Shown here piece by piece: positions 4,607 to 8,561 of a stretch of DNA of 20,061 nucleotides. Source of the DNA: a virus. Every line of letters starts with the position of its first letter. Position 1 is the stretch's first letter. Under the pieces are notes generated by a model. The model did not search any database. It saw only the letters and a program-made list of their open reading frames with translations, and was not told the origin of the DNA. The position numbers were made by a program, and so were the translations under genes. The DNA lies in IMG/VR virus record IMGVR_UViG_3300035698_013135, positions 1-20,061 of that record, one strand, 5' to 3'.

Positions 4607-4878
4607 ATTTTCCAAAGCCTCCAAAGCTCAATTAACCATGCCTTAAACATGCAAGTTAATACAACGGCCTCTTCTCGAAGTATCAAAGCAGGTACGAATT
4701 GTATAATGCCAGTGATCAAATGATCGCCAGCATGATCAGAGAGCCCATCTAAAAAACAATGCCGGATAAACTCAAAGCAGTTGTACAACGCTGAAAACCA
4801 AATCACCAATACCATAGTGCCACCAAAAACAACTAAGTTTTTGATAAAGCCAATTCCTTTTTCGCTGTCTAATCTCAT
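4603..4878 (-). CDS. Small membrane protein, hypothetical
   Basis: A 91-residue protein. The frame opens at a GTG at 4920, but the ATG at 4878 has GGAG 9 bases upstream and shares its whole leader with the AAA+ gene, so it is preferred. The N-terminus is polar (MRLDSEKGIG). A first hydrophobic segment spans residues ~13-34 (LVVFGGTMVLVIWFSALYN). A loop with several His/Asp residues follows, then a second hydrophobic stretch at ~53-86 (ITGIIQFVPALIL and VVLTCMFKAWLIELW) interrupted by REE. It is likely an inner-membrane protein with two membrane segments. Nothing links it to lysis, because it is in the leftward operon far from the endolysin. Confidence 0.6.
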   Translation of the reverse strand: MRLDSEKGIGFIKNLVVFGGTMVLVIWFSALYNCFEFIRHCFLDGLSDHAGDHLITGIIQFVPALILREEAVVLTCMFKAWLIELWRLWKI

Positions 4879-4882
4879 TTTT

Positions 4883-4896
4883 ACATTCTCCAATGT
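4883..4896 (-). promoter_or_regulatory. Shine-Dalgarno hairpin of the membrane-protein gene
   Basis: Read on the - strand: ACATT-GGAG-AATGT, a perfect 5-bp stem presenting the Shine-Dalgarno as a tetraloop, then AAAA and the ATG. About 23 bases covering this element and the start are identical to the leader of the AAA+ gene at 7238-7260. Confidence 0.6.
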
Positions 4897-4925
4897 TGGT
4901 TTGATAGTGGTTGAACCCACTAGAA

Positions 4926-4971: not shown

Positions 4972-5838
4972 TTAATATGCTCCATCAGTGGCAGCGGTTT
5001 GTAGCGATTCCCATACCTCAGCGTCTAGACCGTCTTTTAAGTGAGACAGAAGAGTTTTAATCGCTCCCTCGGGAGTGCCGTATCCCTCAGTTATTGCTGG
5101 AATACATAACTCATTCGCGCCTAGTTCAGAATGATTAGGATTAATCACGATTCCGTATCCAGATACGTTTGTTATAGATTCATCCCACGTCTCAAACATT
5201 CTAAAATTAATCCTTCTAGACCATGATGGGTTAGCTAGAGCAAAAATCGCCCTGTCCCTTTCTAGTGGGTCTCCGGCGGATTTAATTTTAACCCGATTAT
5301 AAACCCTTCCGTTTTTGATCTTACTCAGGAAGACAGAGACAATTTCTACACTAATCCCCATGGCTTCAAGTGAATCAACCAAACCCATAAGAGCAAACCC
5401 AAAATTCATCATTTCCTTTGTGTCTACACTAGCCGAACATACGCAATTGTAAACAAGGGTAACGACTGGCGCTCTAGAAGAAATTTCTTCCCCCCTAGAT
5501 ACCATGTGGCAAGGGTCTCCAGAACAAAATGCGGGTATATCAGGAAAGCCACCCGCTACCCCATAAGACAGCGAATTAGCACGAACTGAACCCATGACTG
5601 GGCTCTCTGCCTCTAGCTTCAAAACGCGCTCTAAGCCTTCTGGCCAGCCTTCCCTTGCGAGTTTGATTGTCTCTTCCCAGTTATCAGTACCTGTAAACCA
5701 CTTACTTCCAGACTTACTAGAACAATCGTCTTCAGACCATTTCTTAGAGGTTGGCACGTTTTCGATGTAATCAAGAAACTGATCAAAATCATCAAACTCA
5801 GTCATACAGGTATTACCGTCTTTATATGCTTTATTCAT
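4972..5838 (-). CDS. Phage protein with possible degenerate VWA-like fold, partner of AAA+ ATPase
   Basis: A 288-residue protein. The N-terminus is acidic (MTEFDDFDQFLDYIENVP) with a Ser/Lys-rich linker. The centre has KLAREGWPEGLERVLKL, a motif seen in phage proteins encoded beside CobS/MoxR-like ATPases. A core of alternating strands and helices follows: VVTLVYNCVCSA, FALMGLVDSLEAMG, ISVEIVSVFLS, then RRINFRMFE and GYGIVINPN. This order resembles a von Willebrand A domain, but the expected metal-site DxSxS at the end of the first strand is replaced by NCVCS, so metal binding is doubtful. MoxR-family ATPases are commonly paired with VWA proteins, and the ATPase gene lies directly upstream in the same operon. 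Family placement is inference. Confidence 0.6.
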   Translation of the reverse strand: MNKAYKDGNTCMTEFDDFDQFLDYIENVPTSKKWSEDDCSSKSGSKWFTGTDNWEETIKLAREGWPEGLERVLKLEAESPVMGSVRANSLSYGVAGGFPDIPAFCSGDPCHMVSRGEEISSRAPVVTLVYNCVCSASVDTKEMMNFGFALMGLVDSLEAMGISVEIVSVFLSKIKNGRVYNRVKIKSAGDPLERDRAIFALANPSWSRRINFRMFETWDESITNVSGYGIVINPNHSELGANELCIPAITEGYGTPEGAIKTLLSHLKDGLDAEVWESLQTAATDGAY

Positions 5839-5853: not shown

Positions 5854-5884
5854 TTTGTTTTAGTGCTTAAATTTACACTCCGAA

Positions 5885-5906
5885 TAGCTCTCGGTTAAGA
5901 GAGCTA
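5885..5906 (-). terminator. 8-bp perfect hairpin between AAA+ and downstream gene
   Basis: TAGCTCTC (5885-5892) and GAGAGCTA (5899-5906) form a perfect 8-bp stem with a 6-base loop, 15 bases after the AAA+ stop. There is no T-run leftward, so it may attenuate rather than end transcription, or protect or process the mRNA. Confidence 0.45.
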
Positions 5907-5920
5907 AACAGGCTATAAAC

Positions 5921-7240
5921 TTACATAGCAGCCTTAATCTTATCAATTGAAGCCTTTTCCAGACCTTTCCAGACTGTTACGTCTAGAACGTCTTCTTCTT
6001 TCCATCCCTTAGCCAGCAATAAAGCACCGGCTATGGTGCACCTAGGCGATACAATGTGCCTAACTCCGCATTCTTTAACAGCATTGCGGATTTTGACCAC
6101 TTTGCGGACCCAGTCTTGATTATCAGTAAAGCTAGACTCTAACTTTTCATCATAATCTATGGCCAGTTGCTGCCACCTTGAAAGAGTAGCGGCGTCTTGC
6201 TGATAACGTCCTACATATTGCCTGTCTGCACCATTCCCATAGGTATTGGCAGCCGATATAGCAATAAAATCAGGATGCTTCTCAAAAGTGCCATGCGGGA
6301 AATCACAAATTCCATTGTCTAGTGCCGCATTAAAAGCCAGTACTGGGTTAGGCAAAGAACCGTCTATCTCGTCAAAAAGGAAGACGCCGCCAGTTGTATA
6401 TCGGCGGAAAAACTCAGTCTCGACATATTCGCCAGTGGCAGACATATAACCCATCAACTTATGTTCTTGGGTCAATGCGCCAGTGAAAGAAAAGGGAAGA
6501 CTCAAAGCATCAGCTATCTGTCTGGCTAGGGTAGTTTTACCGCTACCGGCTGGACCCACAAACTGTAGATTTAAACCGCAGGTAACGACATCCATTCCCA
6601 TCTCAAACCGATAGTGGACCCCTTCCATCTTTTTAGATTCACGCTCTGTGGCTTCAATGATGTATGACAACGGGGCTTGCGAATGTTTCTTCACTAGCTC
6701 TATCACCTTACTTTCATCAATCTCAACCTTTTGAGTTTGGCCGATAGCCGCCATCAAAGTTGCCATGGCTTGTTGAACGTCTCCAGTCTGGCTTGTTGCC
6801 GTTACTGGCTTAGACTCTGTCTTAGATGGCTTTGAAGCGCCTCCAGAATGATAGCCCCAAGGGTCAATACCACAATGTTCTGCGGCCTCGTACCATTGAG
6901 AGTTATTCATAGTTGCGCTGTCATAGCCTGAATGATCAAGAAAGCCGGCCCAGCTAATGCTGGACCTGATTTCCTTTCTCAAAGCGTCTCGGTTATCGGC
7001 CAGCTTCAAACCCGTGTAAGGGTTCGAGGTTGAATTGAGAGTAGAGAAGTAGACATAGCCAAAAGTCAGTGCCTTTTTAGGTACTGCCACTGAACCAACG
7101 GTTGACTCGAAAGTCTGGCCGTTTTTTCTGGTAACAGTGACGGTTGAATCAAAAGCCAATTGCTCTTCTGAGTGCATACCCCAGTCATTAACAGATAGTC
7201 CTGATTCATTGTGCAGTCGTACAGGTTTAATAATATTCAT
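5921..7240 (-). CDS. MoxR/CobS-like AAA+ ATPase
   Basis: A 439-residue protein; the start is ATG 7240 with GGAG upstream (an in-frame TTG at 7255 lies inside the Shine-Dalgarno hairpin and is rejected). The first ~150 residues are a separate domain with beta-rich and aromatic segments (WGMHSEEQLAFDSTVTVTRK, FGYVYFSTLN) and a Ser/Thr/Lys-rich linker; I do not recognise it. The AAA+ core has Walker A GPAGSGKT (229-236), Walker B VFLFDEID (286-293), sensor 1 AANTYG (330-335) and SPR (398-400) as a likely sensor 2. The pattern around them (LMGYMSATGEYVETEF, FNAALDNG) fits the AAA_5/CobS-MoxR group, which remodels proteins or inserts cofactors together with a VWA partner. The next gene downstream may be that partner. 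It heads the leftward operon. Confidence 0.85.
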   Translation of the reverse strand: MNIIKPVRLHNESGLSVNDWGMHSEEQLAFDSTVTVTRKNGQTFESTVGSVAVPKKALTFGYVYFSTLNSTSNPYTGLKLADNRDALRKEIRSSISWAGFLDHSGYDSATMNNSQWYEAAEHCGIDPWGYHSGGASKPSKTESKPVTATSQTGDVQQAMATLMAAIGQTQKVEIDESKVIELVKKHSQAPLSYIIEATERESKKMEGVHYRFEMGMDVVTCGLNLQFVGPAGSGKTTLARQIADALSLPFSFTGALTQEHKLMGYMSATGEYVETEFFRRYTTGGVFLFDEIDGSLPNPVLAFNAALDNGICDFPHGTFEKHPDFIAISAANTYGNGADRQYVGRYQQDAATLSRWQQLAIDYDEKLESSFTDNQDWVRKVVKIRNAVKECGVRHIVSPRCTIAGALLLAKGWKEEDVLDVTVWKGLEKASIDKIKAAM

Positions 7241-7244
7241 TTTT

Positions 7245-7258
7245 ACATTCTCCAATGT
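7245..7258 (-). promoter_or_regulatory. Shine-Dalgarno hairpin of the AAA+ gene
   Basis: Same element as at 4883-4896: ACATT-GGAG-AATGT on the - strand, a 5-bp stem with the Shine-Dalgarno as loop, then AAAA and ATG 7240. Confidence 0.6.
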
Positions 7259-7267
7259 TTGAGTTTT

Positions 7268-7320
7268 GGTACGGATTCCGTACCTTTAGAGGCTCTTAAT
7301 CAAAGCCCCTAAAGGTACGG
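7268..7320 (-). promoter_or_regulatory. Alternative-hairpin leader or palindromic operator of leftward operon
   Basis: Three copies of one 7-mer in both orientations: GGTACGG (7268-7274), CCGTACC (7278-7284), GGTACGG (7314-7320). The first two form GGTACGG-ATT-CCGTACC, a 17-bp palindrome. The last two extend to a perfect 12-bp stem (7278-7289 with 7309-7320), then one mismatch and a further 4 bp (7291-7294 with 7304-7307) around a 9-base loop. The middle copy can pair with only one partner at a time. The element lies 10 bases upstream of the Shine-Dalgarno hairpin of the AAA+ gene. It may be an RNA attenuator in the operon leader or a repressor operator with three half-sites. Confidence 0.6.
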
Positions 7321-7354
7321 CCACCTAGAAGACTAGATAGCCGTAACTCAAACA

Positions 7355-7376
7355 GTCGGCCATATATAGCGCCGAC
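7355..7376. promoter_or_regulatory. Inverted repeat with TATATA centre
   Basis: GTCGGC (7355-7360) and GCCGAC (7371-7376) flank CATATATAGC. It could be a second leader hairpin of the leftward operon, or an operator over a TATATA -10-like core. No convincing -35 box stands at 16-18 bases from it on either strand. Confidence 0.35.
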
Positions 7377-7440
7377 GAGGAGAAAACTTGATACTTGCTT
7401 GAATCCCCAGTCGTGCCCCCTTGTTGCTCTAAAGCCTAGA

Positions 7441-7500
7441 GGGGCTGGGTCTCTGTTTCTTCTATAAGGCAGAGAATCCGCGATTCAAACTTTGCGCCCC
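7441..7500 (+). other. Possible three-way-junction RNA structure
   Basis: GGGG (7441-7444) can pair with CCCC (7497-7500). Inside lie two arms: TCTCTGTTT (7450-7458) with the segment 7467-7475, including two G-T pairs, and CGCGA (7479-7483) with TTGCG (7492-7496), including one G-T pair. The G-T pairs favour a + strand transcript. It has no tRNA D-arm or T-loop geometry and is only ~60 bases. No promoter for it is clear. Confidence 0.25.
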
Positions 7501-7977
7501 CCTCGCGAGAGACACTGTCTAGGTATAGGGTTTCTATACAAACTAGACATAAAACAACGTACTAGGGGCACAATGAGGGATGGCTAACTTATAGTGAACC
7601 CCCCTACTAGATAAGGTTGGTGAATAGTATAGTTAAATCAATAGGTTACGTTTAAGACGGTGAATAATTAATTTACCTATAGATAGAGGGATAGACAGAT
7701 CACCTAGCCAGACAGAGAGACCCCTAGAATGCCTTGTAAGCAATAGTTAGATTCTAGATAGTAAGTGATAGGCATAGGCTAGCGTGAAGAGAGAGCCCAT
7801 AGGCTTTGCTTAGGATGGATAGACTTCTCCTCTTTTTTGAAGATTAAGTCTCGATTGACCAAAACGTCTTAGAAGGGAAATTAGAGGGCTCTAAGACTGG
7901 GCCGAAAAACCCCCCTCAAAACGGCGGACCGGACCTATTAACTCCAATGATATAAGACACTAAACAAATCAATAGCA

Positions 7978-8068
7978 TGAATGATCAATGTTAGTGATGG
8001 ATTAGATCAATGTCGTGAATGATTCAGAGGGATGATGATAGGTGTGGTTAGGATCACTAGGATCAATG
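7978..8068. repeat. GATCAATG/TGAATGAT direct repeats (iteron-like)
   Basis: GATCAATG occurs at 7983-7990, 8005-8012 and 8061-8068; TGAATGAT at 7978-7985 and 8016-8023; GGATCA at 8051-8056 and 8060-8065. Four GATC sites fall within 82 bases. The surrounding sequence (7930-7990) is A/T-rich. The arrangement could be initiator or regulator binding sites. Confidence 0.4.
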
Positions 8069-8160
8069 GCGGACAGAGACAGCAACAATGGGGGGAAAGT
8101 AGTTCAATCCCAAGCAAGTGTCTTGCCCTCAGTCGTGTCTCTTCCCCTTGCCGGACAGCC

Positions 8161-8261
8161 AGACAGAGACGCATCACAAGGCCAGTGGTAGACAGAGACG
8201 CCAGCATAGACAGCATAGACAGGGGCTCTAGACATAGGGGGGTAGACGTAGACTCAGAGAC
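8161..8261. repeat. AGAC-rich direct-repeat array
   Basis: AGAC occurs ten times in 101 bases, all on the + strand (8161, 8167, 8190, 8196, 8208, 8217, 8230, 8244, 8250, 8258). It includes a 12-bp direct repeat AGACAGAGACGC (8161-8172 and 8190-8201) and a perfect 9-bp tandem AGCATAGAC (8203-8211, 8212-8220). A further ACAGAGAC is at 8073-8080. The region is non-coding, immediately left of the G-runs and the rightward promoter. Confidence 0.6.
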
Positions 8262-8293
8262 ATTGAGGAGGAGGGGGGGGTAGGGGGGTAGGG
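8235..8293 (+). repeat. G-run cluster with TAGGGGGGTAG repeats, possible G-quadruplex
   Basis: TAGGGGGGTAG occurs at 8235-8245 and 8281-8291. Between them is a run of eight G (8273-8280), and GGG follows at 8291-8293. The G8-TA-G6-TA-G3 block meets the usual short-loop quadruplex pattern on the + strand. It lies about 50 bases upstream of the rightward -35 box. Confidence 0.5.
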
Positions 8294-8342
8294 CCTGAGC
8301 AGCGATGGAAATAGATTGATATCAACCCCCAGCGAATCGTCC

Positions 8343-8371
8343 TTGTGAATAATTAACGCAAACTGCATAAT
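8343..8371 (+). promoter_or_regulatory. Sigma-70-like promoter of rightward operon
   Basis: TTGTGA (8343-8348), a 17-base spacer, then CATAAT (8366-8371). This gives 4/6 and 5/6 matches to the consensus at optimal spacing. It sits directly before the first rightward gene; transcription would begin near 8378. It is the best promoter I can see in the non-coding core. Confidence 0.6.
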
Positions 8372-8396
8372 GCTCGGAGACAAAAGAAGACGGCTC

Positions 8397-8561
8397 ATGT
8401 GTGAATGCGAGACTCCAGACCTAGTATTACTCGGTAACACCCCTTTCTGTACTGGGTGTAATTGTCCTGTGCGGGACGTAATTAGACTGGAATATCTCCT
8501 TAATACCGTCCAAAAGCCTGAAAATGGCCAAAATAAGCACTTTTGCTCGTTAGCAGCATGA
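8397..8561 (+). CDS. Small Cys-rich (zinc-ribbon-like) protein
   Basis: A 54-residue protein, MCECETPDLVLLGNTPFCTG at the N-terminus. It has CEC and a CTGCNC cluster about 15 residues later, which could bind one zinc, then a short helix (VRDVIRLEYLLNTVQ). An in-frame ATG at 8370 overlaps the -10 box and would lie outside the transcript, so 8397 is preferred; its Shine-Dalgarno is weak (AAGAAGACGG). It is the first gene after the rightward promoter. It may be a regulator, but no family is recognised. Confidence 0.45.
   Translation: MCECETPDLVLLGNTPFCTGCNCPVRDVIRLEYLLNTVQKPENGQNKHFCSLAA

Follow-up and report, generated by a model that had tools for sequence, protein, structure and literature searches.

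The window, a 20,061-base virus record analyzed over its whole length, carries at positions 7256 to 7354 an element that was predicted to fold, on the leftward strand, as a four-way RNA junction at the head of the leftward operon. Our leading explanation, put forward tentatively, is that the element serves the leftward mRNA, whose first gene is the AAA+ gene, as a structured 5′ leader that acts in cis and after transcription. The leftward strand from 7360 to 7230 folded at -60.9 kcal/mol (z -8.5), and none of 200 shuffles was as good. The interval 7261-7350 folded alone gave z -8.8, and across computations the fold of the element ranged from z -8.5 to about -10. A significant fold in the leftward strand directly upstream of a gene, as structured leaders in general have, was therefore found.

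The gene content of the record comprises a P22-type portal, a Phage_capsid_3 capsid protein, a terminase, a lysozyme, an SSB and a RecE-like exonuclease. The nearest named relatives of the portal were phage CBW1004C-Prop1 (37%) and the Pseudanabaena phages Pam5, Pan3 and Pam1, which makes a cyanobacterial host plausible. The first gene of the leftward operon encodes an AAA+ ATPase (AAA_5; PHROG 249; 5921 to 7240, leftward strand); its most likely start is the ATG at 7240, 28 nt downstream of 7268 in the leftward sense. The second is a DUF7192 gene (at 5838). The nearest gene on the other side of the element is divergent and ~1 kb or more distant, and for this reason a role of the element as the terminator of an upstream gene was rejected. 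The rightward genes of that side start beyond ~8,370 at the earliest, with ~1.1 kb lacking convincing genes in between.

In the predicted structure (all features on the leftward strand), an outer stem encloses three hairpins. The 5′ strand of the outer stem (UGUUUGAGUU, 7345 to 7354) is complementary at 10/10 positions to its 3′ strand (AACUCAAACA, 7256 to 7265), giving a perfect 10-bp helix with pairing probabilities of 0.92-0.94. Hairpin H1 (ACGGCUAUCUAG-UCUU-CUAGGUGGCCGU, 7317 to 7344) has 12-13 bp with two G.U pairs, hairpin H2 (7285 to 7313) has 12 bp, and hairpin H3 (7268-7284) has 7 bp. The linkers of the junction are 0, 3, 0 and 2 nt long, and the outer stem stops two nucleotides short of the GGAG Shine-Dalgarno sequence (7250-7253) of the AAA+ gene. 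A preliminary description made from the letters of the window had proposed three alternating segments at this site; H3 and an extended form of H2 were already part of that proposal, which had missed a fourth segment, H1 and the outer stem.

The three repeat copies of that description were located as GGTACGG at 7268-7274 and 7314-7320 and CCGTACC at 7278-7284. Both of the pairings that it gave to the middle copy were also found. The near pair (7268-7284) can form 8 bp around a 1-nt gap or 7 bp around a 3-nt loop. The arms of the distal pair (7278-7294 and 7304-7320) lie 9 nt apart and match by Watson-Crick rules at 16/17 positions, as 12 perfect bp, one mismatch and 4 bp. In RNA of the leftward strand this mismatch becomes a G.U pair and the stem gains two closing pairs, which makes a hairpin of 19 continuous bp with a loop of 5 nt (7278-7320; -32.1 kcal/mol, z -9.2). 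With loops of 3-9 nt and at most one G.U pair allowed, the longest stem on the leftward strand of the window was 17 bp; 60 dinucleotide shuffles of the full 20 kb gave 12 at most and 9.6 on average. A chance origin of the repeats and the stem is excluded by this comparison.

Four segments account for the alternative folds: a (UACGG, 7341 to 7345), b (CCGUACC, 7314 to 7320), c (GGUACGG, 7278 to 7284) and d (CCGUACC, 7268 to 7274), the last three being segments 1, 2 and 3 of the preliminary description. Segment a pairs with b in state A and with d in state B. State A (a:b + c:d, the latter being H3) was computed at -60.9 and state B (b:c, with a:d in the minimum structure) at -59.6, and H2 lengthens from 12 to 19 bp when b and c pair. 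The mutually exclusive pairings described beforehand were thus borne out as near-isoenergetic states. In the ensemble, state A accounted for ~83% (c:d 0.83) and state B for ~15% (b:c 0.15), and the outer stem was retained in the minimum structures of both. When growing transcripts were folded, b:c was part of the best fold until d emerged, after which c:d replaced it; a transient state B during RNA synthesis is therefore plausible. As modeled, the alternative pairing amounts to a local slide (migration) of the junction by a few base pairs, which is permitted because the helix ends are repeats. The site had been called a dedicated switch, and a dedicated structure far from chance does stand at the head of the operon; the output of an attenuator does not accompany it, and the alternative pairing is the slide of the junction.

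Translation signals lie at the base of the fold. The Shine-Dalgarno hairpin anticipated for the AAA+ gene was found at 7245 to 7257 (leftward strand; ACAUU-GGAG-AAUGU, GGAG in the loop, 4-5-bp stem). It falls within an exact 23-nt repeat, 7237-7259 being identical to 4875-4897 (leftward strand), so that two leftward-operon genes are preceded by the ribosome-site cassette AACAUUGGAGAAUGUAAAAAUGA. For the DUF7192 gene at 5838, the Shine-Dalgarno sequence sits in the loop of another hairpin (ACUG-GAGAAAA-CAGU). No change of Shine-Dalgarno accessibility between states A and B was found, both minimum structures keeping the outer stem. Pairing of GGAG appeared instead to be set by the 5′ end of the transcript. 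In folds of transcripts beginning at 7359 or 7362, a UUGG:CCGA extension paired the GG of the ribosome site; transcripts beginning at 7355, 7357 or 7376 left it mostly open, and in longer ones, from 7420 or 7480, upstream sequence paired it again.

Directly upstream of the element, a perfect inverted repeat, GTCGGC-N10-GCCGAC (7355 to 7376), surrounds TATATA. It is the sole such site in the window, and with up to 2 mismatches 0.45 sites are expected by chance. This repeat may be a promoter or operator, and as a -10 element TATATA would start the RNA at ~7355-7360, at the outer stem. A promoter scan of the leftward strand returned no sigma-70-like promoter at threshold and none that was convincing. 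The GC skew and the purine skew each have a turning point at 7504, which in the leftward sense precedes the element, and the GC skew reaches its opposite extreme precisely at 2994, a convergent gene end; these turns are consistent with leftward transcription through the element. We infer that the region is transcribed leftward.

Under the favored reading, the nascent leftward RNA would fold compactly, with linkers of 0-3 unpaired nucleotides joining its three hairpins and its outer stem of 10 bp. The three GGTACGG/CCGTACC copies and a fourth, partial copy would be the junction-proximal helix ends, and the 'switch' would be the mobility of the junction itself. Such a fold could shield the start of the mRNA from decay, present a double-stranded target to an RNA-binding protein or to an enzyme of the RNase III type, and place an open ribosome site at the base of a helix. 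We infer that the element is most likely phage-specific and acts on mRNA stability, processing or initiation; the anatomy and known phage leaders suggest 5′-end protection, RNase III-type processing or initiation control as its exact task. In the 5′ leader of lambda cIII, RNase III binding changes the conformation and relieves a fold that inhibits translation (PMC2777011). The element would resemble that leader in being a phage 5′ leader structure, and the link to RNase III is drawn here by analogy. The conformational change in cIII frees translation, whereas the slide of the element would leave the outer stem in place beside the ribosome site. If transcribed, the element would be a very stable and compact structured leader in a phage without close sequenced relatives, at the head of an operon that opens with an AAA+ and a DUF7192 gene, a pair widespread among phages.

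A further possibility is a new kind of phage regulatory RNA, a migrating four-way junction of repeated helix ends that acts in cis on the polymerase, an RNase or the ribosome, its two positions being two functional states; we consider this unlikely.

Whether the element acts as RNA or as DNA was approached through strand asymmetry. The presumably transcribed (leftward) strand folded at -60.7 and its complement at -44.9. Three other non-coding stretches of the operon differed in the same direction by smaller margins (-25.2/-15.5, -30.7/-27.8 and -17.6/-15.8). All non-Watson-Crick pairs in the stems of the element are G.U in the leftward sense, a bias carried by few pairs. In these models the asymmetry favors RNA over a DNA operator without proving RNA, as it rests on those few pairs. 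Folded as single-stranded DNA, both strands were strong (z -7.3 and -6.5), and a role as DNA is therefore still conceivable.

Two readings at the DNA level were weighed. The first, which the preliminary description had offered as an equal fit, is an operator in which a repressor controlling the leftward promoter binds CCGTACC half-sites, two of them in a 17-nt palindrome and a third apart from it. The half-sites are as described: perfect 8-bp arms flank a 1-nt gap at 7268-7284, a further copy stands at 7314-7320, and the exact arrangement occurs once in the window, near the candidate -10 and inverted repeat at 7355-7376. However, an operator leaves unexplained the strand asymmetry as well as H1, the outer stem and the central 12 bp of H2, none of which derives from the half-site, and we give it only a small chance. 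The second is a DNA structure, either a branched cruciform or a fold of one strand, that would lie close to an origin or an end of the genome and serve replication, recombination or packaging. The strength of both strands as DNA would suit it, and in Sinorhizobium phage phiM5 an AAA+ gene of the same family adjoins the terminal repeat, with a RuvC gene nearby. Set against this are the asymmetry seen when the strands are folded as RNA and the ending of the fold exactly at the Shine-Dalgarno sequence; such a structure is improbable to about the same degree as an operator.

Among RNA-level alternatives, an antitermination RNA like HK022 put would stay on RNA polymerase and allow it to read through the hairpins of the operon. 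The put RNAs of HK022 (putL/putR) are ~70 nt long, consist of two stem-loops, lie downstream of early promoters and have proven antitermination activity (PMC9378689). Like put (PMC9378689), the element would be a structured RNA that acts in cis close to the start of a phage operon transcript, and this strongly folded RNA heads an operon with further hairpins in its intergenic stretches. Unlike the two stem-loops of put, the element has ~100 nt and three hairpins inside an enclosing outer stem, and is known by its predicted fold. It had no Rfam match, and the downstream hairpins lack U-runs and so give little sign of terminators to overcome. A put-like function is accordingly rated as distinctly unlikely.

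Very unlikely, too, is a transcription attenuator or riboswitch-like device, in which exclusive hairpins choose between termination and ribosome access. Attenuators of amino-acid biosynthesis operons have four segments, in which 1:2 and 3:4 pairing competes with 2:3 pairing. The element shares the four segments and the mutually exclusive pairings, with a:b and c:d opposed to b:c in the same topology. The states are nearly isoenergetic, and b:c is predicted to form first during transcription before c:d replaces it. Unlike those attenuators, the element lacks the U-run of a terminator and a leader peptide equipped with a Shine-Dalgarno sequence or control codons. A terminator scan of 7256-7360 (leftward strand) found no terminator-like site; CCGUACC is followed by AAAACUC instead of a U-run, and no hairpin has a U-run after it. 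A 12-codon ORF inside the leader (MADCLSYGYLVF, 7325-7363) has neither a Shine-Dalgarno sequence nor a run of codons for one residue. The outer stem is present in both minimum structures, GGAG pairing varies with the 5′ end of the transcript, and state A is already dominant (83%). The attenuator that had been suggested for this site thus lacks its defining output, because there is no U-run behind any arm, the outer stem is kept and the ORF has no Shine-Dalgarno sequence. A small mobile or decayed MITE-like element would suit the perfect 10-bp terminal inverted repeat around ~80 bp. It is extremely improbable, since there is one copy in the window, the exact core was not found in IMG/VR and no target-site duplication is visible in the flanks.

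Relatives of the leader were searched for at several levels. Using blastn against phages, queries of 2 kb and 152 nt returned no leader homologs or chance matches only, and in IMG/VR there was no match to an exact 33-mer of the element or to the exact 22-nt ribosome-site cassette. A single-sequence covariance model run against ~140 loci of the same AAA+ family recovered only itself. One search for genome contigs with the AAA+ protein came back empty, and another gave relatives at 50% identity or below, with no leader match. In the DNA examined, phages related by capsid or portal protein lacked the AAA+ gene; a search through whole records of such phages gave one weak, doubtful match (in G005). 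No Rfam family reached its gathering threshold in the window, the best sub-threshold hit being a microRNA model (21.9 bits against a cut-off of 93); identity as a tRNA or an Rfam RNA was rejected, none being found in the window.

Members of the AAA+ family occur widely, mostly beside a DUF7192 gene, and are at most 52% identical to the AAA+ protein of the window. Among 79 leaders before this family, that of the window had the strongest fold. Where the gap was 110 nt or longer, leaders folded below z -4 in 7/31 cases before AAA+ genes (one of the 7 being the window itself) and in 5/247 before other genes of the same phages, a contrast weaker than it appears because 4 of the 7 look related to each other. 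A stricter count of perfect hairpins gave a smaller difference (p 0.005 for stem density, 0.04 for two or more hairpins). On these figures, leaders before the AAA+ family are somewhat more structured on average, which hints at RNA-level control of the AAA+/DUF7192 pair in several lineages, as a lead and not a result. One RNA common to all leaders of the family was rejected, as sequences and folds differ and the hairpin enrichment is weak.

Four loci (L085, L091, L047 and L104) share a conserved multi-hairpin leader upstream of the AAA+ start, with a competing local GGACRUUCYGUCC hairpin. In a rough alignment, a stem enclosing H1 shows some compensatory changes and competes with the local hairpin. 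Like the element, these are multi-hairpin leaders before the same gene; they have no sequence or covariance-model match to it, and they are parallels, not members. At another locus, L001, a GC-rich and visibly structured non-coding stretch (2200-2650) lies ~1.2 kb upstream of the AAA+ gene; L001 gave no Rfam match.

Further features were observed within the window. Between the AAA+ and DUF7192 genes, a long interrupted hairpin (5866-5923, leftward strand) reached significance only on the coding strand (z between about -4 and -6, compared with -1.0) and is a possible RNase III-type site. The ~1 kb from 7380 to 8370 is apparently non-coding, with CTAG at 2x and AGACAG at nearly 5x their frequency in the rest of the window, and a gap of ~780 nt that looks similar precedes the AAA+ gene of L001. 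Inside the gene-poor region, a small rightward ORF (8370-8561) contains CxC and CxxC pairs and possibly encodes a zinc-ribbon protein.
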